From Candidatus Hydrogenedentota bacterium (GTDB lineage: Bacteria; Hydrogenedentota; Hydrogenedentia; Hydrogenedentales; SLHB01), in NCBI GenBank assembly GCA_022706165.1, contig JAKJDA010000026.1, positions 1 through 15,242 of the forward strand: a stretch of DNA of 15,242 nt, read 5' to 3'. Positions 1 to 9,584 of this stretch are shown one piece after another. A program made the translations under genes and the position numbers. The notes under the pieces are model-generated. The model searched no databases. It saw only the letters and a list, made by a program, of their open reading frames with translations, and had not been told where the DNA came from. How positions within the stretch are numbered: the stretch's first letter is position 1; each line of letters starts with the position of its first letter.

Positions 1-1488
1 GCGTCCGCCGCGCCGGACAGCTTCCGCGCCCACGGCCGCGCTCAACAAATAGACACACACCACCGCCCCCCATGCGCTCGGCAGCGCGGGCATGGGGGTC
101 ATCGTCACGCCAGCCATATAGAATACGCGCTGGGATTGGGTCAGCCATTCGAGACGGAAGCGTCCACCCGACTCAAACGCCAGATACCCCGCGAACATGC
201 CAAGCGTGAGAACCGTGGCGGTTGCTGCGATGGCAGCCCAGCGTGCGGCCTCCCGCAGGCTTTTCCCGCGCCGGCACAGAACTGCGACGGCCGCAAGGGT
301 CACAAAAAAAGCGCCGGTTACAGCGATGCCGCTGTCCATGTTCCACGCCAGCGCCAGGCCGCATAGCAAGCCCATCGCCGCCGCCCGCTTGGCCGTGGGA
401 CGGCGCGTGAACCACAGGAAAAGCCACCCCCCCGCAGCGGGAAAAAGAAAGCGAATGGGAATGTATTGGTAGTAAGGGTCCGCGAGGTTCCACTCGGCAA
501 CGTCGATCGCTTGAAGTCCCCAGACGGCCATCTGCGCGATGGCGAAAAGCCACAACCCCAGGATACGTCGCGTCCGAACCAAACGCTGCATCACGCCGTA
601 CAGCGAAAGCGTTCCGATCAGTGCGATCGCGGTCATGGTGGAGGTGAAGGTGAACACGGAGAGGCCAATCAGATGAAACCATGGCGCCAGGAATTCGCCG
701 TAGAGACCGTATTGCGCGGGCAGGTCCGCGAGCAACGTCTTGCCGGTCGCAGCCTGCGCGACGCTATAGAAAACGGCCTCGAAATGCGAGTACCAGCGCG
801 GACTATCCTCGCTCACGCTGGCGAGGCTCGCCACACGAAACGAGGCCACGGGAAAGAAAATCGTCAGCGCGAGAAAGGTCCGCCACACGATCCGGCGGCC
901 GACGGTGTTTGGGGGCGTCGATGCGCCTCTTGCCGATGCGAGGGATGCGTGCGCCGCAAACGCCAGAGAGGTGACAAAAAGGGCCTCCTGAAGAAAAGGC
1001 CTCTCCATGACAAAGGCAAACACCTTGTCTAACGGAGCCGGGTCGTGCATGAAATAGAACAAGGCCAGAAGAGCGGCTATAGGCAGCGCGGACTCCATCG
1101 CGAGCGTCGTTTTTTGCATAGTTGCCCAAGCAGGCGCAGTCCGGGCAACAAGCCAGAGCGCAAGCCATACCACAAACGGAGACGCAAGTGTCAGTGCAAT
1201 AAACAAAAAACGTTCTTGCGGTTCCGGCGCAAGCGCAGACTCCGAGGTGAATTGTGCGGCAAGTCTGTTGAGTTCGTCGAGCGGAACGTTCAGATGGACG
1301 CATCGATCGAGCGATTCGCCCAAGGCCAGCAGCACAAAAGCCGCTAGAAAAAACGCCGCCAGTGCGGCCGTTGCCGTGTGCCAAACGGACGCGGGGGGAC
1401 GCCGGAAATCATCTGTCAAACGTTGGCGCAACCGGTCAAAGCAACCGCGCAAGGCGTTTGTCACAAGGCGCGCCCGCAACGTCGTCAC
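1..1488 (-). CDS. Polytopic membrane protein, glycosyltransferase-like (C-terminus beyond window)
   Basis: The frame opens at a GTG (1488-1486) that overlaps the stop of the upstream rfbH-like gene as GTGA and stays open for 496 codons to the left edge, so the C-terminus is missing. The protein has a basic N-terminus, a first membrane helix at about residues 37-57, a second at about 95-115, and many further hydrophobic segments. Between them are the motifs [13 protein letters not shown] (249-261) and WNMDSG (382-387). Short acidic loops and a QYG motif like this occur in GT-C-type membrane glycosyltransferases that use lipid-linked sugars (GT39/ArnT-like); this is recalled family pattern, not a search result. 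The overlap implies translational coupling to the sugar dehydrase, so transfer of a deoxysugar or polymerisation of an envelope glycan is a reasonable inference. The reading frame is secure; the function is tentative. Confidence 0.8.
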
Positions 1489-2819
1489 CCCGCGCGCTTT
1501 TTGCAGAAGGCATGCACGGTGTCGATGACGAAATCGAGGTGTTTGGTCGTGAGGCCGGGGTACACGCCGATCCAGAAGACCTGGTTCATCACGAAATCGG
1601 AGTTCGCGAGTTCGCCCACGACGCGGTGCGGCACGTTCCTGTATGCGGGCTGGCGCACGAGATTGCCGCCGAACAACAGACGCGTGCCAATCTTCTTCGA
1701 TTCGAGATGGCGCACGAGCGCGTCGCGCGTGAAGGCCGCCTCGGGCCGCACGGCAATCGGAAACCCAAACCAACTCGGGTCGCTGCCCGGCGTGGCCTCG
1801 GGCAGAAGCAAATGCGCTTGCAAGTCGCCAAGCCCTGTCCGCAGATGCGCGAAGTTGCGTTTGCGCGTCTCGATGAACCGAGGCAGTTTACGGAGCTGCG
1901 CAACGCCGACGGCAGCCTGCATATCGCTGAGCTTCAGGTTGTAGCCGATTTCCGAGTAGGTGTATTTGTGATCGTATCCGTACGGCAACTCGCCCAACTG
2001 CCAGTCGAAACGTTTGCGGCACGTGTTGTCGCGACCCGGTTTGCACCAGCAATCGCGGCCCCAATCGCGGAAGGACTCGGCGAGTTTTTTGATCTGTTTG
2101 TCGCCGCACATCACCGCGCCGCCCTCGCCCATCGTGATGTGATGCGCCGGATAGAAGCTCACGGTCGCTACATCGCCAAACGTGCCGCAGTTCTTGTCGT
2201 GGAACGTCGCGCCAACCGCATCGCAACAGTCCTCGATCAGCCAGAGATGGTGCTTCTTCGCGAACCTTTTGACCGTCGTGACGTCGAAGGGATTGCCCAG
2301 CGTGTGCGCGAAGATGATCGCCTTGGTGCGTTCGCTTAGCGCCGCTTCGAGTTGCGTCACGTCGGCGTTGTAGGTGGGCACGTGGACATCGACGAAAACC
2401 GGCGTGAGGCGGTTTTGGATAATGGGATTGACCGTCGTCGGGAAACCCGCAGCGACCGTGATCACCTCGTCGCCGGGCGCGAGACGTCGTTCGCCGAGCG
2501 TTTCCGACGTGAGACACGATATCGCCAACAGATTCGCGCTTGAGCCGGAGTTCACGAGCAACACATGCTTGCACCCGATGAAGTGCGCAAAATCGTGCTG
2601 AAACCGCGCCGCAAAACGCCCCGTCGTCAACCAGAAATCGAGCGACGAATCAACGAGCGTCATAACGTCGTCATAATCGAACACGCGTCCGCTTACAGGC
2701 ACTGGGTCCTTACCCGGCGTAAACTCGCGTTTGGGCCAATTCTCCGCGCTGAATGCGCGCACCATCTCCAAAATCTTCGCGCGCAACGCGTCGGCGCTGG
2801 AAGGAGAATCCGAGTCCAT
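1485..2819 (-). CDS. rfbH: CDP-4-keto-6-deoxyglucose-3-dehydrase (RfbH/DdhC/E1-like)
   Basis: A 444-residue DegT/DnrJ/EryC1/StrS-fold enzyme. In place of the usual PLP lysine the active-site segment reads [14 protein letters not shown] (221-234), putting His226 at the lysine position, the hallmark of E1-type dehydrases that use PMP for C3 deoxygenation. Cysteines C199, C257, C259 and C267 give exactly the C-X57-C-X-C-X7-C spacing of the E1 [2Fe-2S] cluster. The known reaction, with a partner reductase (E3/DdhD), removes the C3 hydroxyl of CDP-4-keto-6-deoxyglucose on the way to CDP-3,6-dideoxyhexoses of O-antigen. Neither the reductase nor CDP-glucose dehydratase is in the window. The ATG at 2819 has AGGAG five bases upstream. 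It lies 68 bp after gcvPB and overlaps the membrane glycosyltransferase-like gene by 4 bp. A final sugar other than a CDP-dideoxyhexose cannot be excluded. Confidence 0.93.
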
Positions 2820-2887: not shown

Positions 2888-4327
2888 TCAACACGCGCAA
2901 TCGAGCCGTCGCGCGGCATACACTTCGTCGAGACGTCCCACGGGCGTTGTCGCGGGGGCATCATGGAAACTCTGCGGGTCAGTGGCCGCGCGCGCGGCTA
3001 TTGCCAGCATGGCGTCGCAAAATGCATCCAGCGTCTCCTTGGACTCTGTTTCCGTGGGCTCGATCATGAGGGCTTCTTTCACCGTAAGCGGGAAATAAAC
3101 GGTCGGCGCGTGAAATCCATGATCGAGGAGGGCCTTTGCGATGTCGATCGCATGAACGCCGTCGCGCGCCTGTGCCGATGCGGAGAAGACGCATTCGTGC
3201 ATAAAGCGTCCGTCGAACGCGCGATCGTATGCATCCTTCAATCGCGCATAGATGTAGTTTGCGTTGAGAACGGCATTCTCGGAAACTTTCTTGAGTCCCT
3301 CGCCGCCGAGATGAAGGATGTACGCATACGCCCGGAGCGCGATCATGAAATTGCCGAAGAACGCCGATACGCGTCCGATGGATTGTTCCGGCGTTGCAAG
3401 CGTGTAGAGGTCTCCCTCCTGCACGACGCGCGGACCGGGCAGGAACGGAACCAATCGCGCGCCCACGCCGACCGGGCCCGAACCCGGGCCTCCCATGCCG
3501 TGCGGCGTCGCGAAGGTTTTGTGCAAATTGAAATGCATGACGTCGAACCCCAAATCGCCGGGACGCGCTTGGCCGATGATGGCATTCAGATTCGCGCCGT
3601 CGTAGTACATCAGCGCGCCCGCATCGTGGGCGAGAGCGGCGATATCGGCCACATGGGGCTCGAAGAAGCCGTGGGTATTGGGACAGGTCAGCATTACGCC
3701 AGCCACACGGGGGCCGAGCAATGCTTTGAACGCATCGAAATCAATAGTGCCCGTGTCGTTGGACGGGATTTCTTTTACCTTGAATCCCGCGATGGCGGCG
3801 CTGGCGGGATTCGTGCCGTGCGCGGAATCGGGCACGAGGATCGTGTCCTTTTTTTTCGCGTTGCCGCGGGCGCGGTGATAGGCCGCCATCATCAACGTGC
3901 CCGCGAGTTCGCCGTGCGCGCCCGCGATGGGTTGCAGGCTGACCTCGCGCATGCCGCCAATTTCCGCAAGAAAACGTTCCAACTCGTAGACGACCTCGAA
4001 GGCTCCTTGGCACAACGGGTGCAGCGCGCGCGACGAGGCGACGTGGGGGTGCAATTCCGAGAAGCCGGAATAGGCAGCCACGGCCTCGGCCATTTTCGGG
4101 TTGTATTTCATCGTGCAGGACCCGAGCGGGTAGAAATGCGAATCGACGCCAAAATTGCGACGCGACAGATTGGTGAAATGACGCACAACGTCCAACTCGC
4201 TCACCTCCGGCAATGCGGCGGATGTTTCGCGGCACAGTTCCGGCGGCAGCGCCGCTTCCGGGACATCAAGGGGATCAAAAGCAACGCCCCTGCGGCCTGG
4301 ACGCGATTTCTCATAGATTAGCTGCAT
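2888..4327 (-). CDS. gcvPB: Glycine dehydrogenase (decarboxylating) subunit 2
   Basis: A 479-residue PLP-binding half of the split P-protein of the glycine cleavage system. Together with GcvPA it decarboxylates glycine and loads the aminomethyl group onto lipoyl-GcvH in the cytoplasm. The family hallmarks are clear: YPLGSCTMKYNPK (66-78), DSAHGTNPAS (167-176), YYDGANLNA (241-249), and the PLP lysine K270 in HFNLHKTFATPHG (265-277). Length is typical for the family. The ATG at 4327 overlaps the end of gcvPA by 10 bp and has AAGGA upstream, which supports both the start and translational coupling. The one slight deviation seen is PNTHGFFE where PNTLGLFE is common. It appears intact and should be inactive without a functional GcvPA. 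Confidence 0.97.
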   Translation of the reverse strand: MQLIYEKSRPGRRGVAFDPLDVPEAALPPELCRETSAALPEVSELDVVRHFTNLSRRNFGVDSHFYPLGSCTMKYNPKMAEAVAAYSGFSELHPHVASSRALHPLCQGAFEVVYELERFLAEIGGMREVSLQPIAGAHGELAGTLMMAAYHRARGNAKKKDTILVPDSAHGTNPASAAIAGFKVKEIPSNDTGTIDFDAFKALLGPRVAGVMLTCPNTHGFFEPHVADIAALAHDAGALMYYDGANLNAIIGQARPGDLGFDVMHFNLHKTFATPHGMGGPGSGPVGVGARLVPFLPGPRVVQEGDLYTLATPEQSIGRVSAFFGNFMIALRAYAYILHLGGEGLKKVSENAVLNANYIYARLKDAYDRAFDGRFMHECVFSASAQARDGVHAIDIAKALLDHGFHAPTVYFPLTVKEALMIEPTETESKETLDAFCDAMLAIAARAATDPQSFHDAPATTPVGRLDEVYAARRLDCAC

Positions 4328-5145
4328 GCCGTGTCCTTCAACGCTTGCGCGTATGCGTCGAGTTCTTGACGCGTCCGTCTTTCGGTGACCGCGACGAGCA
4401 GGTCGTTCGGCCCGCCAACGCCCAATGGTTCAAGCGGAAGGCCCGCCAGGAAACCGCGCGCGGCCATGCGTGCGACAACGTCCTGTGCATTCCTCGGCAA
4501 GCGAAGCGCGAATTCGTTGAACGTCGGCCCGTCGTTCAGGAGCGCCGCAAAGCCAAGCCGCGACTTCAGGTACTCCGCCTTGCTATGGCACTGCACCGCC
4601 AGCTCTCGGATCCCTTCTTTGCCGAGCAGACACATATGGACCAGCGCGCGCAAGGCGCAGAGCGCTTCGTTCGAGCAAATATTCGACATGGCCTTTTCGC
4701 GGCGGATGTGTTGTTCGCGCGCCTGAAGCGTGAGCACGAAACCGCGCCGGCCTTGTGCATCTTGCGTGGCGGCGGCCAAGCGTCCCGGCATTTTGCGGAC
4801 ATGCGCCTTGCGCGTCGCGAGCACGCCTAGATAAGGGCCTCCGAATCCGGCGGGAATGCCCAGGCTTTGTCCCTCGGCCACGGCAATATCCGCGCCCATC
4901 TCGCCCGGAGTCTTCACAATGCCCAGCGCGACAGGATAGAAACTCGCCACCAACAGCGCGCCCGCATCGTGGCACCGCTGCGCCAAGCAAGAGTAGTCGG
5001 CAAGAGTTCCAATAAAACTAGGCAACTGCACAACTACGCATGCAGCATCCGTTGGGTCGTCGCCTTCGACGATATCGAGACCGAGGTTGGCGGCGTGCGT
5101 CTCGGCCACTTGCCGATGAATCGGGTTCAGCGAGGAGTGATGCAC
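4318..5145 (-). CDS. gcvPA: GcvPA C-terminal fragment (frameshifted)
   Basis: This is the second-frame piece, opening formally at a GTG (5145) inside the gene, 275 codons, beginning just before [16 protein letters not shown]. It carries the well-conserved C-terminal part of GcvPA ([28 protein letters not shown]). No ribosome binding site was noted at this GTG, so it is best read as the continuation of the broken gene, not an independent start. Confidence 0.6.
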
Positions 5146-5572
5146 GACGCGCGACCTCGAACACCGCCGTGCTCCCGTCGTAAAGCGACGCGTTGGCGAA
5201 GTCCATGCCCGTCAGACGGCAGATCGCCGATTGATACTCGTAAATGGCTTGTAGCGTTCCCTGCGAACACTCGGGTTGGTATGGCGTGTACGCGGTGTAG
5301 AATTCGCTGCGCGAAGTCAGCGCGTCCACGGCCGCCGGAACGAAGTGGTCGTACACCCCGCCGCCCATGAAATTCACCAGGCAAACGTTGTTGTGCGACG
5401 CCAAGCGCGCCAGCCGATCGCGGACGGCCATCTCGGACAACCCCGCGGGCAGGTCCCACGAGGCGACGCGCAATCCAGCCGGGATGTGCGCAAACAACTC
5501 GTCTATCGATCCAACCCCGATCGCTGCCAGCATCTCGCGCGTTTCGGCGTCCGTCGCGGGACTCCACGTCAT
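5018..5572 (-). CDS. gcvPA: GcvPA N-terminal fragment (frameshifted)
   Basis: This is the piece a gene caller would report for the first frame, 184 codons. About the first 140 residues are genuine GcvPA. After YDGSTAVFE the sequence becomes an Arg/Ser-rich tail from reading the wrong frame until a stop at 5018. It lacks the remainder of the protein, so it is not expected to function alone. Confidence 0.6.
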
Positions 5573-7087: not shown

Positions 7088-7131
7088 GCGGATCGCTCTC
7101 CGAGAAGGTCTTTGCGGGACCTGACAGCCCC

Positions 7132-7153
7132 CAAAGGGACAAAAAACCCTTTG
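7132..7153 (-). other. Hairpin in the gcvT leader, possible expression platform
   Basis: CAAAGGG (7153-7147) and CCCTTTG (7138-7132) form a perfect 7-bp stem with an 8-base loop that itself holds six T. It lies directly downstream of the riboswitch 3' motif and 45 bases before the gcvT ATG. Because the T run is in the loop and not after the stem, it is not a textbook terminator. It may be part of a translation-control platform, or pairing may rearrange with the aptamer. Confidence 0.45.
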
Positions 7154-7155
7154 TG

Positions 7156-7234
7156 TGCCCAGGCGAACGGCGAGCGACGGCTCGTTGCTTCCCCGTGGTC
7201 ACTTCCACGTCACATCGCCAGTAGCAACGAGCCC
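7156..7234 (-). promoter_or_regulatory. ZTP (pfl-motif) riboswitch aptamer upstream of gcvT
   Basis: Read on the minus strand, GGCTCGTTGCT (7233-7223) pairs perfectly over 11 bp with AGCAACGAGCC (7189-7179) as P1. The internal sequence holds CTGGCG, a small stem CGTGG/CCACG and then GGGGA followed by the P1 strand starting AGC. After a short linker comes CGCCTGGGCA (7165-7156). CTGGCG, CCAC-GGGGAGC and CCGCCTGGGCA in this order are the conserved elements of the pfl motif, which senses ZTP/ZMP (AICAR phosphates), signals of 10-formyl-THF shortage. These RNAs are known upstream of purine and one-carbon genes, which fits gcvT, a source of methylene-THF. The match is from memory of the consensus; a covariance search would settle it. 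Confidence 0.8.
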
Positions 7235-7269
7235 GGCATGCGCAGTACTGTGCCATCCCGACGCATGCC
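7235..7269. repeat. Inverted repeat over the gcvT promoter
   Basis: GGCATGCG (7235-7242) and CGCATGCC (7262-7269) are perfect 8-bp inverted arms separated by 19 bp. They span the predicted spacer and -10 region and abut the riboswitch P1. It could be an operator for a dimeric regulator, or a chance GCATGC repeat in GC-rich DNA. Confidence 0.4.
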
Positions 7270-7276
7270 CTGTCAA
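7247..7276 (-). promoter_or_regulatory. Candidate promoter of the gcv operon
   Basis: A perfect TTGACA (7276-7271) is followed after 18 bases by CACAGT (7252-7247), a weak -10 that keeps the key A2 and final T. A transcript would begin near 7240, just before P1 of the riboswitch at 7233. The position between an upstream terminator and the aptamer supports the call more than the -10 sequence does. Confidence 0.5.
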
Positions 7277-8144: not shown

Positions 8145-9584
8145 CTATCCCTTCACGACGCCAACGGGACGGATCCGGACGACGCGACGGGCAAGACCGG
8201 CGCGTTCAATGACTTCGACGACGGCATCGATGTCCTTATACGCCTCCGGGCTTTCTTCGGTTAGGCTGTTCCTGCTGCGGGCCATGACGGTGATGCCATG
8301 ATCAGCCAACTCGCGGAGGAGCTTGCCTGCGTCCTGCGATTTACGGGCAGCCGTGCGACTAAGCACGCGGCCCGCGCCGTGACAAGAACTGCCAAAGGTC
8401 GCCTTCATCGCCGATTCGGCGCCGACGCAAACGTAGGATCCCGTCCCCATGTCGCCCGGAACGAGCACGGGTTGTCCGACGGCGCGATAGACCGCAGGCA
8501 CATCGGGATGCCCCGCCGGAAACGCGCGCGTCGCGCCTTTGCGGTGGACGCACAACCGCTTGCGCACCCCGCCAACCTCGTGCATCTCGAACTTCGCGAT
8601 GTTGTGGCAGACGTCATACAGCAGACGTCCGCCGAGTTCACGCGGCGAAACCTTCAGCGCATGCTGCAGCGAGCGCCGCGCGAGTTCCATCATGATTTGA
8701 CGATTCGCCCACGCAAAATTCGCCGCCGACGCCATTGCCGCCAGATACTCGCGCCCTTCCTCGGCATGCACCGGCGCGCAGCAGAGCTGCTTGTCGGGCA
8801 GACGGATGCCGTACTTCGCGGCGGCGCGCACCATGATGTCGAGAAAATCGTCGCACACCTGATAGCCAAGGCCACGACTGCCGCTGTGGATCATCAGCGT
8901 GACCTGGCCCTCGAACAAGCCGAAAACGTTCGCGACGCGCTCATCAAGCACGCGCTCGACCACGCCCAACTCGACAAAATGGTTGCCCGAACCAAGCGTC
9001 CCAAGTTGATCCGCGCCGCGCGACATTGCGCGCGATGATACCGCCGCAGAATCCGCGCCGGTCATGCAGCCGTTCTCTTCGGTGGTGTCGAGATCGCCAA
9101 CGGAACCGTAGCCCGCCTCGACGGCCCAGCGCGCCCCCTTCTCCAGCACCGCCCGCAGATCCCTCTCGCCAAGCTTCGGTATCGCCCCGCTCGACCCGAC
9201 GCCCGCCGGGATATCGCGATACAGCGCATTGACGGTTTCACGCAGACGGGGCGCGATGTCCGCAAACGAGAGCTGCGTGGTCATGAGTCGCACGCCGCAG
9301 TTGATGTCGTACCCCACGCCGCCCGGCGAGATGACTCCGCCCGCGTCCGGGTCCGTCGCGGCGACCCCGCCGATGGGAAAGCCATAGCCCCAATGTGCAT
9401 CCGGCATCGCCAGCGCATGTCCCACGATCCCCGGCAGACACGCGACATGCGCCGCCTGCTCCGCCGCCTTGTCCGACTCGATCGGGCCGATGAGCCGCTC
9501 ATCCGCGATGATCCGCGCCGCCACCCGCATCGGCGGCGTCTTGGCGATCTCATAGGTGGTGCTATCAATCCGAGTGAGTTTCAT
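8145..9584 (-). CDS. rtcB: RNA-splicing ligase RtcB
   Basis: A 479-residue GTP- and Mn2+-dependent RNA ligase that joins 2',3'-cyclic phosphate (3'-phosphate) and 5'-OH ends through a guanylated histidine. Visible hallmarks are GGVGYDINCGVR (88-99) with metal ligand Cys96, GSGNHFVE (198-205), HSGSRGLG with His233, His327 in YDVCHNIAKFE, and CHGAGRVLSR (401-410) with His402 as the predicted guanylation site. All expected metal and catalytic positions seem present and the length is normal. AGGA lies before the ATG at 9584. No archease, RtcA or RtcR gene is in the window, so it appears as a stand-alone RNA repair or tRNA ligation gene. It is divergent from the exported-protein cluster that begins at 9800. 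Confidence 0.96.
   Translation of the reverse strand: MKLTRIDSTTYEIAKTPPMRVAARIIADERLIGPIESDKAAEQAAHVACLPGIVGHALAMPDAHWGYGFPIGGVAATDPDAGGVISPGGVGYDINCGVRLMTTQLSFADIAPRLRETVNALYRDIPAGVGSSGAIPKLGERDLRAVLEKGARWAVEAGYGSVGDLDTTEENGCMTGADSAAVSSRAMSRGADQLGTLGSGNHFVELGVVERVLDERVANVFGLFEGQVTLMIHSGSRGLGYQVCDDFLDIMVRAAAKYGIRLPDKQLCCAPVHAEEGREYLAAMASAANFAWANRQIMMELARRSLQHALKVSPRELGGRLLYDVCHNIAKFEMHEVGGVRKRLCVHRKGATRAFPAGHPDVPAVYRAVGQPVLVPGDMGTGSYVCVGAESAMKATFGSSCHGAGRVLSRTAARKSQDAGKLLRELADHGITVMARSRNSLTEESPEAYKDIDAVVEVIERAGLARRVVRIRPVGVVKG

Follow-up and report, generated by a model that had tools for sequence, protein, structure and literature searches.

ZTP riboswitches ahead of the glycine cleavage operon of Hydrogenedentota, probably acting on translation

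Which regulatory RNA governs the glycine cleavage genes of Candidatus Hydrogenedentota? A common controller of such operons is the glycine riboswitch, RF00504 (passages in PMC7266159 and PMC9971707), but the original prediction for the DNA studied here was that a ZTP riboswitch occupies the leader of gcvT. The window, meaning the whole stretch of 15,242 nucleotides that was analysed (contig JAKJDA010000026.1), carries the gcv genes on its minus strand in the order gcvT-gcvH-gcvPA-gcvPB (Table 1). Its gcvT, gcvH and gcvPB all score above their NCBIfam cut-offs, and its closest named GcvT relatives (52 to 58% identity) are from Candidatus Hydrogenedentota. By comparison with three aligned relatives gcvPA has a deletion of ~32 nt (window 5100-5200, minus strand) which breaks the frame and reflects either a genuine lesion or an error of assembly. 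In a relative, L035, the N-terminal part of gcvPA also lies in two frames (4150-4568; f1, then f3), a possible frame break.

Beyond gcvPB lies rfbH, which together with the next gene had been suggested to fall under the same switch. This suggestion is unsupported: an rfbH match is found at none of the gcv loci of the ten named Hydrogenedentota, all of them metagenome-assembled records, of which two (L033, L034) end inside gcvPB. In this particular genome rfbH may nonetheless be co-transcribed with gcv. For the open frame at 1-1773 there is no Pfam match at E ≤ 1 and no NCBIfam match at 0.001. On the other side of the operon, at 8145-9584 (minus strand), an RtcB-family protein matches positions 578-961, the C-terminal part, of the intein-containing RtcB model NF038162, below its cut-off.

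Table 1. Features of the gcv operon and its leader in the window
Feature	Position	Strand	Basis or remark
Promoter: TTGACA (7276-7271) and extended -10-like TGGCACAGTA (7255-7246)	7246..7276	-	box shared with relatives
ZMP/ZTP riboswitch aptamer (pfl motif, RF01750)	7150..7235	-	covariance-model match and covariation
P1 helix, 7233-7224 with 7188-7179 (plus T7223-A7189)	7179..7233	-	Rfam alignment
J1/2, TGGCG	7220-7216	-	enclosed by P1
P2, CGTGG/CCACG	7209-7205 / 7198-7194	-	enclosed by P1
P3, GCC 7171-7169 with GGC 7159-7157	7157..7171	-	Rfam alignment, phylum alignment
Pseudoknot, loop strand CGCC with GGCG	7165-7162 / 7219-7216	-	Rfam alignment, phylum alignment
CGCCTGGGC	7165-7157	-	aptamer 3' element
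Leader / expression platform, 62 nt between aptamer and gcvT start	7088..7149	-	fold, terminator scan
Hairpin CAAAGGG/CCCTTTG	7153-7132	-	T run inside loop
Ribosome-binding site CGGAGAGCGAT	7092..7102	-	predicted partner GTCGCTCGCCG, 7178-7168; 10 pairs, 1 mismatch
gcvT, aminomethyltransferase, 354 aa	6023..7087	-	NF001567, 333 bits, cut-off 300
gcvH, 132 aa	5569..5967	-	NF002270, 166 bits, cut-off 117
gcvPA, two frames (5018-5572, 4318-5145)	4318..5572	-	frame broken near 5145
gcvPB, 479 aa	2888..4327	-	NF003346, 703 bits, cut-off 441
rfbH, LPS biosynthesis protein RfbH	1485-2819	-	730 bits; 68 bp after gcvPB

The original prediction had named an Rfam covariance-model search as a check and the lack of a match as its refutation. 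Run on the window, this search gave one Rfam match only at E ≤ 1, to the ZMP-ZTP model RF01750, at 7235-7150 (minus strand) and full length (model positions 1-86 of 86), with 61 bits against a gathering score of 39 and an E value of 4.6e-8. The aptamer so defined sits between the TTGACA promoter and gcvT, 62 nt upstream of the latter, and hence in the leader of a one-carbon gene. Some details of its anatomy called for correction. The 3' limit had been placed at 7156, too short by comparison with a match that runs to 7150, and a string given as GGGGAGC had been misread, the correct one being GGGGAAGC. The CTGGCG element is present, within ACTGGCG at 7222-7216, and the 11-bp complementary stretch exists as 7233-7223 with 7189-7179, of which the Rfam P1 takes ten pairs.

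The aptamer recurs throughout the phylum: it is found in 59 of 68 genomes, the window's own included, and in 37 of the 38 better assemblies. Of its 76 copies, 54 lie ahead of gcvT, one per genome, 20 ahead of an AICAR transformylase, and two are cut at contig ends. A GcvT match is present in 59 genomes, one of which (G067) is cut at the gene start, leaving 58 readable leaders; 54 of these carry the aptamer. Loss of its elements from relatives that keep the operon, the other outcome that would have told against the prediction, is thus confined to four of the 58 genomes (G003, G013, G028 and G025 (divergent GcvT)), in a comparison whose genomes include none of the window's genus. Nor is there an aptamer at the second gcvT copy of G011 or at the distant gcvT of G052.

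Covariation was examined in an alignment of 68 aptamers, that of the window and 67 others, comprising 66 distinct sequences. Eight of the 76 copies were omitted: seven that exceed 95 nt, and L133, a cut copy whose whole length is identical to L013 from the same genome, probably one locus represented twice. Standard pairs occupy 91.6% of the pair cells in the 68-aptamer alignment, and pairing falls to between 37 and 50% when the partners are slid along each other. Changes on both sides are seen in 107 cells, as against 39.4 in shuffles, the observed number being reached by none of 500 shuffles. Among the 66 distinct sequences, helix 1 has both-side changes at 10 of its 12 pairs. Of the two helices proposed for a covariation check in relatives, P1 covaries, and P2 is conserved and hardly varies. 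P3 and the pseudoknot are likewise near invariant, with 99.0% and 99.6% of cells paired (66 sequences), so for all three elements what is demonstrated is conservation, covariation carrying no test.

The Rfam match, the conservation across 59 of 68 genomes, with 54 of 58 readable gcvT leaders, and the covariation of P1 rule out a chance match and bear out the claim of a ZTP riboswitch ahead of gcvT. On this sequence evidence the RNA of the window is a genuine member of the class, which would be expected to bind ZMP.

The second target in the phylum is a stand-alone AICAR transformylase (aptamer loci L009, L010, L017, L020, L024-L027, L115, L119, L127, L131, L137, L142-L144, L146, L147, L149 and L150). 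Two of the twenty proteins were scanned. The L143 protein aligns with the C-terminal portion of bifunctional PurH models, with scores under their full-length cut-offs, and the L150 protein, from a different subfamily, exceeds the threshold for PRK07106 (AICAR formyltransferase); the remaining 18 were assigned because their sequences visibly resemble L143. The window's own genome also has such a transformylase (L165, 1501-2619), 81% identical to a ZTP-controlled relative. Unlike many of its relatives this gene has no aptamer upstream, the best score there being 8.2 bits, and a second ZTP switch in this genome was rejected on that count. The window's aptamer is the one ZTP match in the assembly (3.48 Mb, 713 contigs, ~83% complete), and gcv is therefore the sole ZTP target found in an incomplete genome.

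We looked also for the RNA that the operon might have been expected to carry. RF00504 matches neither the window (at E ≤ 1) nor the rest of the genome, and it passes its cut-off in none of the 68 phylum genomes, so the glycine riboswitch is rejected as the gcv switch. A single glycine-riboswitch-like hit appears in the phylum, at G029:C57:123039-123156 (plus strand), with 30.8 bits against a cut-off of 32. An aptamer model built from Hydrogenedentota matches nine of the ten named Hydrogenedentota loci, several of which are contigs of the phylum genomes, and misses only L034, whose gcvT is at a contig end. It matches none of 70 gcv loci of other taxa at E ≤ 1, some of which may not include the operon promoter; on 14 of these 70, Rfam at gathering scores returned three tRNAs only.

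The original prediction had pointed to a perfect TTGACA placed such that transcription would begin just before P1. A plain sigma-70 scan found no promoter at the window leader, but relatives share a conserved TTGAC...TGGCA box upstream of their aptamers, which supports the placement. A TGGCANMRT box lies upstream of 37 of the 54 gcvT aptamers, against 0.0035 per shuffled upstream region, and in 34 of those it is preceded, at 14-22 nt, by TTG[AC]N. In the window TTGACA is separated by 18 nt from the hexamer CACAGT (7252-7247), and transcription is expected to start near 7240. The stricter pattern TTGACN{16,20}TGGCANARTA occurs 52 times across the 68 genomes, as against 16 times for the reversed control, with one exact occurrence in the window's genome. 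Only 10 of the 52 are at gcvT; with 42 lying elsewhere, we rejected a gcvT-specific promoter and take the pattern to be that of a general, extended -10 promoter. The TTGAC-(mostly N16)-TGGCANARTA arrangement is a recurrent one in Hydrogenedentota, seen at 7246-7276 (minus strand) of the window and at 51 other sites.

How might the aptamer act on the genes downstream? The two targets differ in what follows it. Terminator-like hairpins are present in 12 of 19 transformylase leaders, where shuffled leaders give an expectation of 4.2, and in 10 of these 12 the hairpin's 5' arm contains the aptamer's CGCCTGGGC (the 19 start-site rows exclude L150). The gcvT leaders show no excess: terminator-like sites occur in 16 of 54, with 15.1 expected from shuffles. 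An intrinsic terminator was also looked for in the window leader itself, which has no terminator-like site and none overlapping P3.

What the gcvT leaders do have is a distinctive ribosome site. Of the 54 gcvT leaders, 28 have AGGC in the 20 nt that precede the start, as do 5 of 96 control starts (gcvH 4/50, gcvPA 1/28, transformylase 0/18, the last being those left after the motif filter), a comparison that ignores shared descent; counted by hand, AGGC occurs in 19 of 35 genera. For AGGCG the counts are 16 of 54 and 1 of 96, and among leaders having GGAGG the motif continues as GGAGGC in 23 of 27 for gcvT and in 0 of 18 for controls. The control starts are the less certain, a Shine-Dalgarno-like core being present in 53/54 gcvT, 38/50 gcvH, 26/28 gcvPA and 18/19 transformylase leaders. 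The aptamer contains the complement of AGGCG, CGCCU, four bases of which form the pseudoknot. In several leaders the complementarity continues beyond CGCCU into the variable bases that precede it, as with AGGCGAAC with GTTCGCCT in L117 and L134, and AGGCGACC with GGTCGCCT in L028.

This extension is greater within leaders than between them. Measured 5' of CGCCU from the AGGC(G):(C)GCCU anchor, helix extension for a leader's own ribosome site exceeds that for permuted leaders, a result reached by 54 of 20000 permutations and, with one leader per genus, by 80 to 180 of 20000 in five draws. The same-anchor test shows nothing for gcvH (1319/5000), gcvPA (3497/5000) or transformylase (5000/5000). 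With the anchor offset as a control, gcvT gave 56/5000 at -2, a position still overlapping the helix; other genes were given 15 control tests, of which gcvPA at -4 was the lowest, with 127/5000. The whole duplex between ribosome site and aptamer gives no signal of covariation: by energy the own pairs of the 54 leaders do no better than permuted ones (2568/20000).

Folding gives a mixed picture. Mean pairing of the Shine-Dalgarno sequence to the aptamer is 0.42 in gcvT leaders as against 0.28 with shuffled aptamers (Wilcoxon p 0.0008), and 0.14 as against 0.12 in transformylase leaders (p 0.26). Compared with their own shuffles, the ribosome sites are on average no better (mean fraction as good 0.46; 9 of 54 at 0.05), and the mean predicted accessibility of the site barely shifts, from 0.37 without the aptamer to 0.33 with it. 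As a sequence signal, the AGGC enrichment suggests a translational ON switch of gcvT.

The window's leader is not a typical carrier of this signal: AGGC is missing from its site, whose score in the helix test is only 2. Both the minimum free energy structure and the ensemble from RNAfold nevertheless pair the ribosome site, CGG-A-GAGCGAT (7102-7092), with GTCGCTC-G-CCG (7178-7168), a partner made up of the linker and part of the P3 5' strand, while keeping P1. The probability of pairing to the aptamer is 0.76; shuffled aptamers have a mean of 0.31, and 3 of the 30 reach the real value. Shuffling the site instead, 27% of 200 sequences pair as well as the real one, and a translational step at this leader is for that reason only a prediction, plausible but from a weak folding signal.

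Taken together, these data lead us to favour, with moderate confidence, the reading that the ZTP riboswitch is the 5' leader of the gcv mRNA and that ligand binding frees the gcvT ribosome site, switching translation on. When 10-formyl-THF runs short, ZMP/ZTP would rise and bind the aptamer, locking P3 and the pseudoknot between J1/2 and the loop. Without ligand, the P3 and pseudoknot strands would pair with the gcvT ribosome site and block translation; in the window, ligand-induced P3 would undo the ribosome-site helix. Since ligand would lock the very strands that otherwise block the site, binding should turn glycine cleavage on, and one-carbon units would pass from glycine into methylene-THF. 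The aptamer's identity, its position in the operon and its conservation were computed here, as were the lack of terminator excess and the enrichment of aptamer-complementary sites at gcvT; the ON direction is argued by analogy with the ZTP class, and we infer ligand binding and translational control, the latter in the window from predicted folding. A wider reading, to which we give somewhat less than even credence, is that the phylum employs two platforms according to target: a terminator with the P3 strand as its 5' arm for the transformylase, an enzyme that uses up ZMP, and CGCCU as anti-Shine-Dalgarno, with co-evolved flanking bases, for gcvT. With the pseudoknot strand serving as anti-Shine-Dalgarno, the bases of the ligand pocket and those hiding the ribosome site would be identical.

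The same switch could instead act on transcription, if the 62-nt leader held a terminator of atypical form or one that depends on Rho. Many pfl RNAs overlap with predicted terminators (as reported in part of PMC2864571), RNA-seq work reports transcription termination at some ZMP-ZTP loci (a passage in PMC12121620), the phylum's own transformylase leaders look terminator-based, and the window leader does contain the CAAAGGG/CCCTTTG hairpin; yet the T run of this hairpin is in its loop rather than after it, and the want of terminator-like sites, in this leader and as an excess in the gcvT group, makes a transcriptional mechanism unlikely. Less probable again is a translational ON switch whose anti-Shine-Dalgarno is peculiar to each lineage, supplied in the window by the linker and P3 5' strand, perhaps with the 5' end covering the start codon. 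Such a switch would suit the window's minimum free energy structure, with P1 kept and 7178-7168 on the ribosome site, and the leaders that lack AGGC and still pair site with aptamer at >0.5 (e.g. L012, L125, L148). The same structure pairs CATGC (7240-7236) with GCATG (7089-7085) over the gcvT start codon, a pairing that matters only for a transcript starting at or before 7240 and so hinges on where transcription begins, and general covariation for site-aptamer pairings is absent. The broken gcvPA frame raises the further idea that the aptamer is a relic, kept by shared descent ahead of an operon dead in the window's lineage. An assembly of 713 contigs can contain such an error, however, and with the core elements kept at 61 bits and gcvT, gcvH and gcvPB intact above curated cut-offs, we regard this as very improbable.

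The phylum may use glycine as an emergency source of one-carbon units, with purine-pathway stress as the signal, rather than treat it as a substrate for removal. The ZTP regulon is extended to glycine cleavage. A ZTP sensor ahead of the gcv genes in most relatives ties a known switch to a target for which we found no published description: the open-licence literature, in the portions accessible, yielded no account of a ZTP switch ahead of gcvT, although an earlier mention may exist. The novelty for this real ZTP riboswitch thus lies in the gcv target and the phylum, with a possible new variant of platform. Transformylase and gcvT together provide a natural contrast between a transcriptional and a probably translational platform, joined to one aptamer.

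Known ZTP (pfl motif) riboswitches share with the window's RNA the full-length match, the conserved core, the leader position at a one-carbon gene and the pseudoknot between J1/2 and L3 (sections of PMC2864571 and PMC10907184), which in ZTP riboswitches makes the binding pocket (a passage in PMC10907184). Known targets listed in PMC2864571, as far as its accessible text goes, are purH, fhs, pfl, glyA, folD and metH, whereas here the target is gcvT, and in the gcvT leaders taken together terminators overlapping P3 are not in excess. For a covariation study from 2026 that dealt with whole ZTP switches, sequences were pre-selected for intrinsic terminators (according to part of PMC13273304). The glycine riboswitch controls the same type of operon, often elsewhere, by a different RNA with a different ligand. 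The two ligands meet in the tandem ZTP/glycine riboswitches of Bacillus and Oceanobacillus, which precede a serine-pathway gene and tie ZTP sensing to glycine and one-carbon supply (from a portion of PMC9481103); those systems employ two aptamers, whereas in Hydrogenedentota a single ZTP aptamer stands ahead of gcvT.
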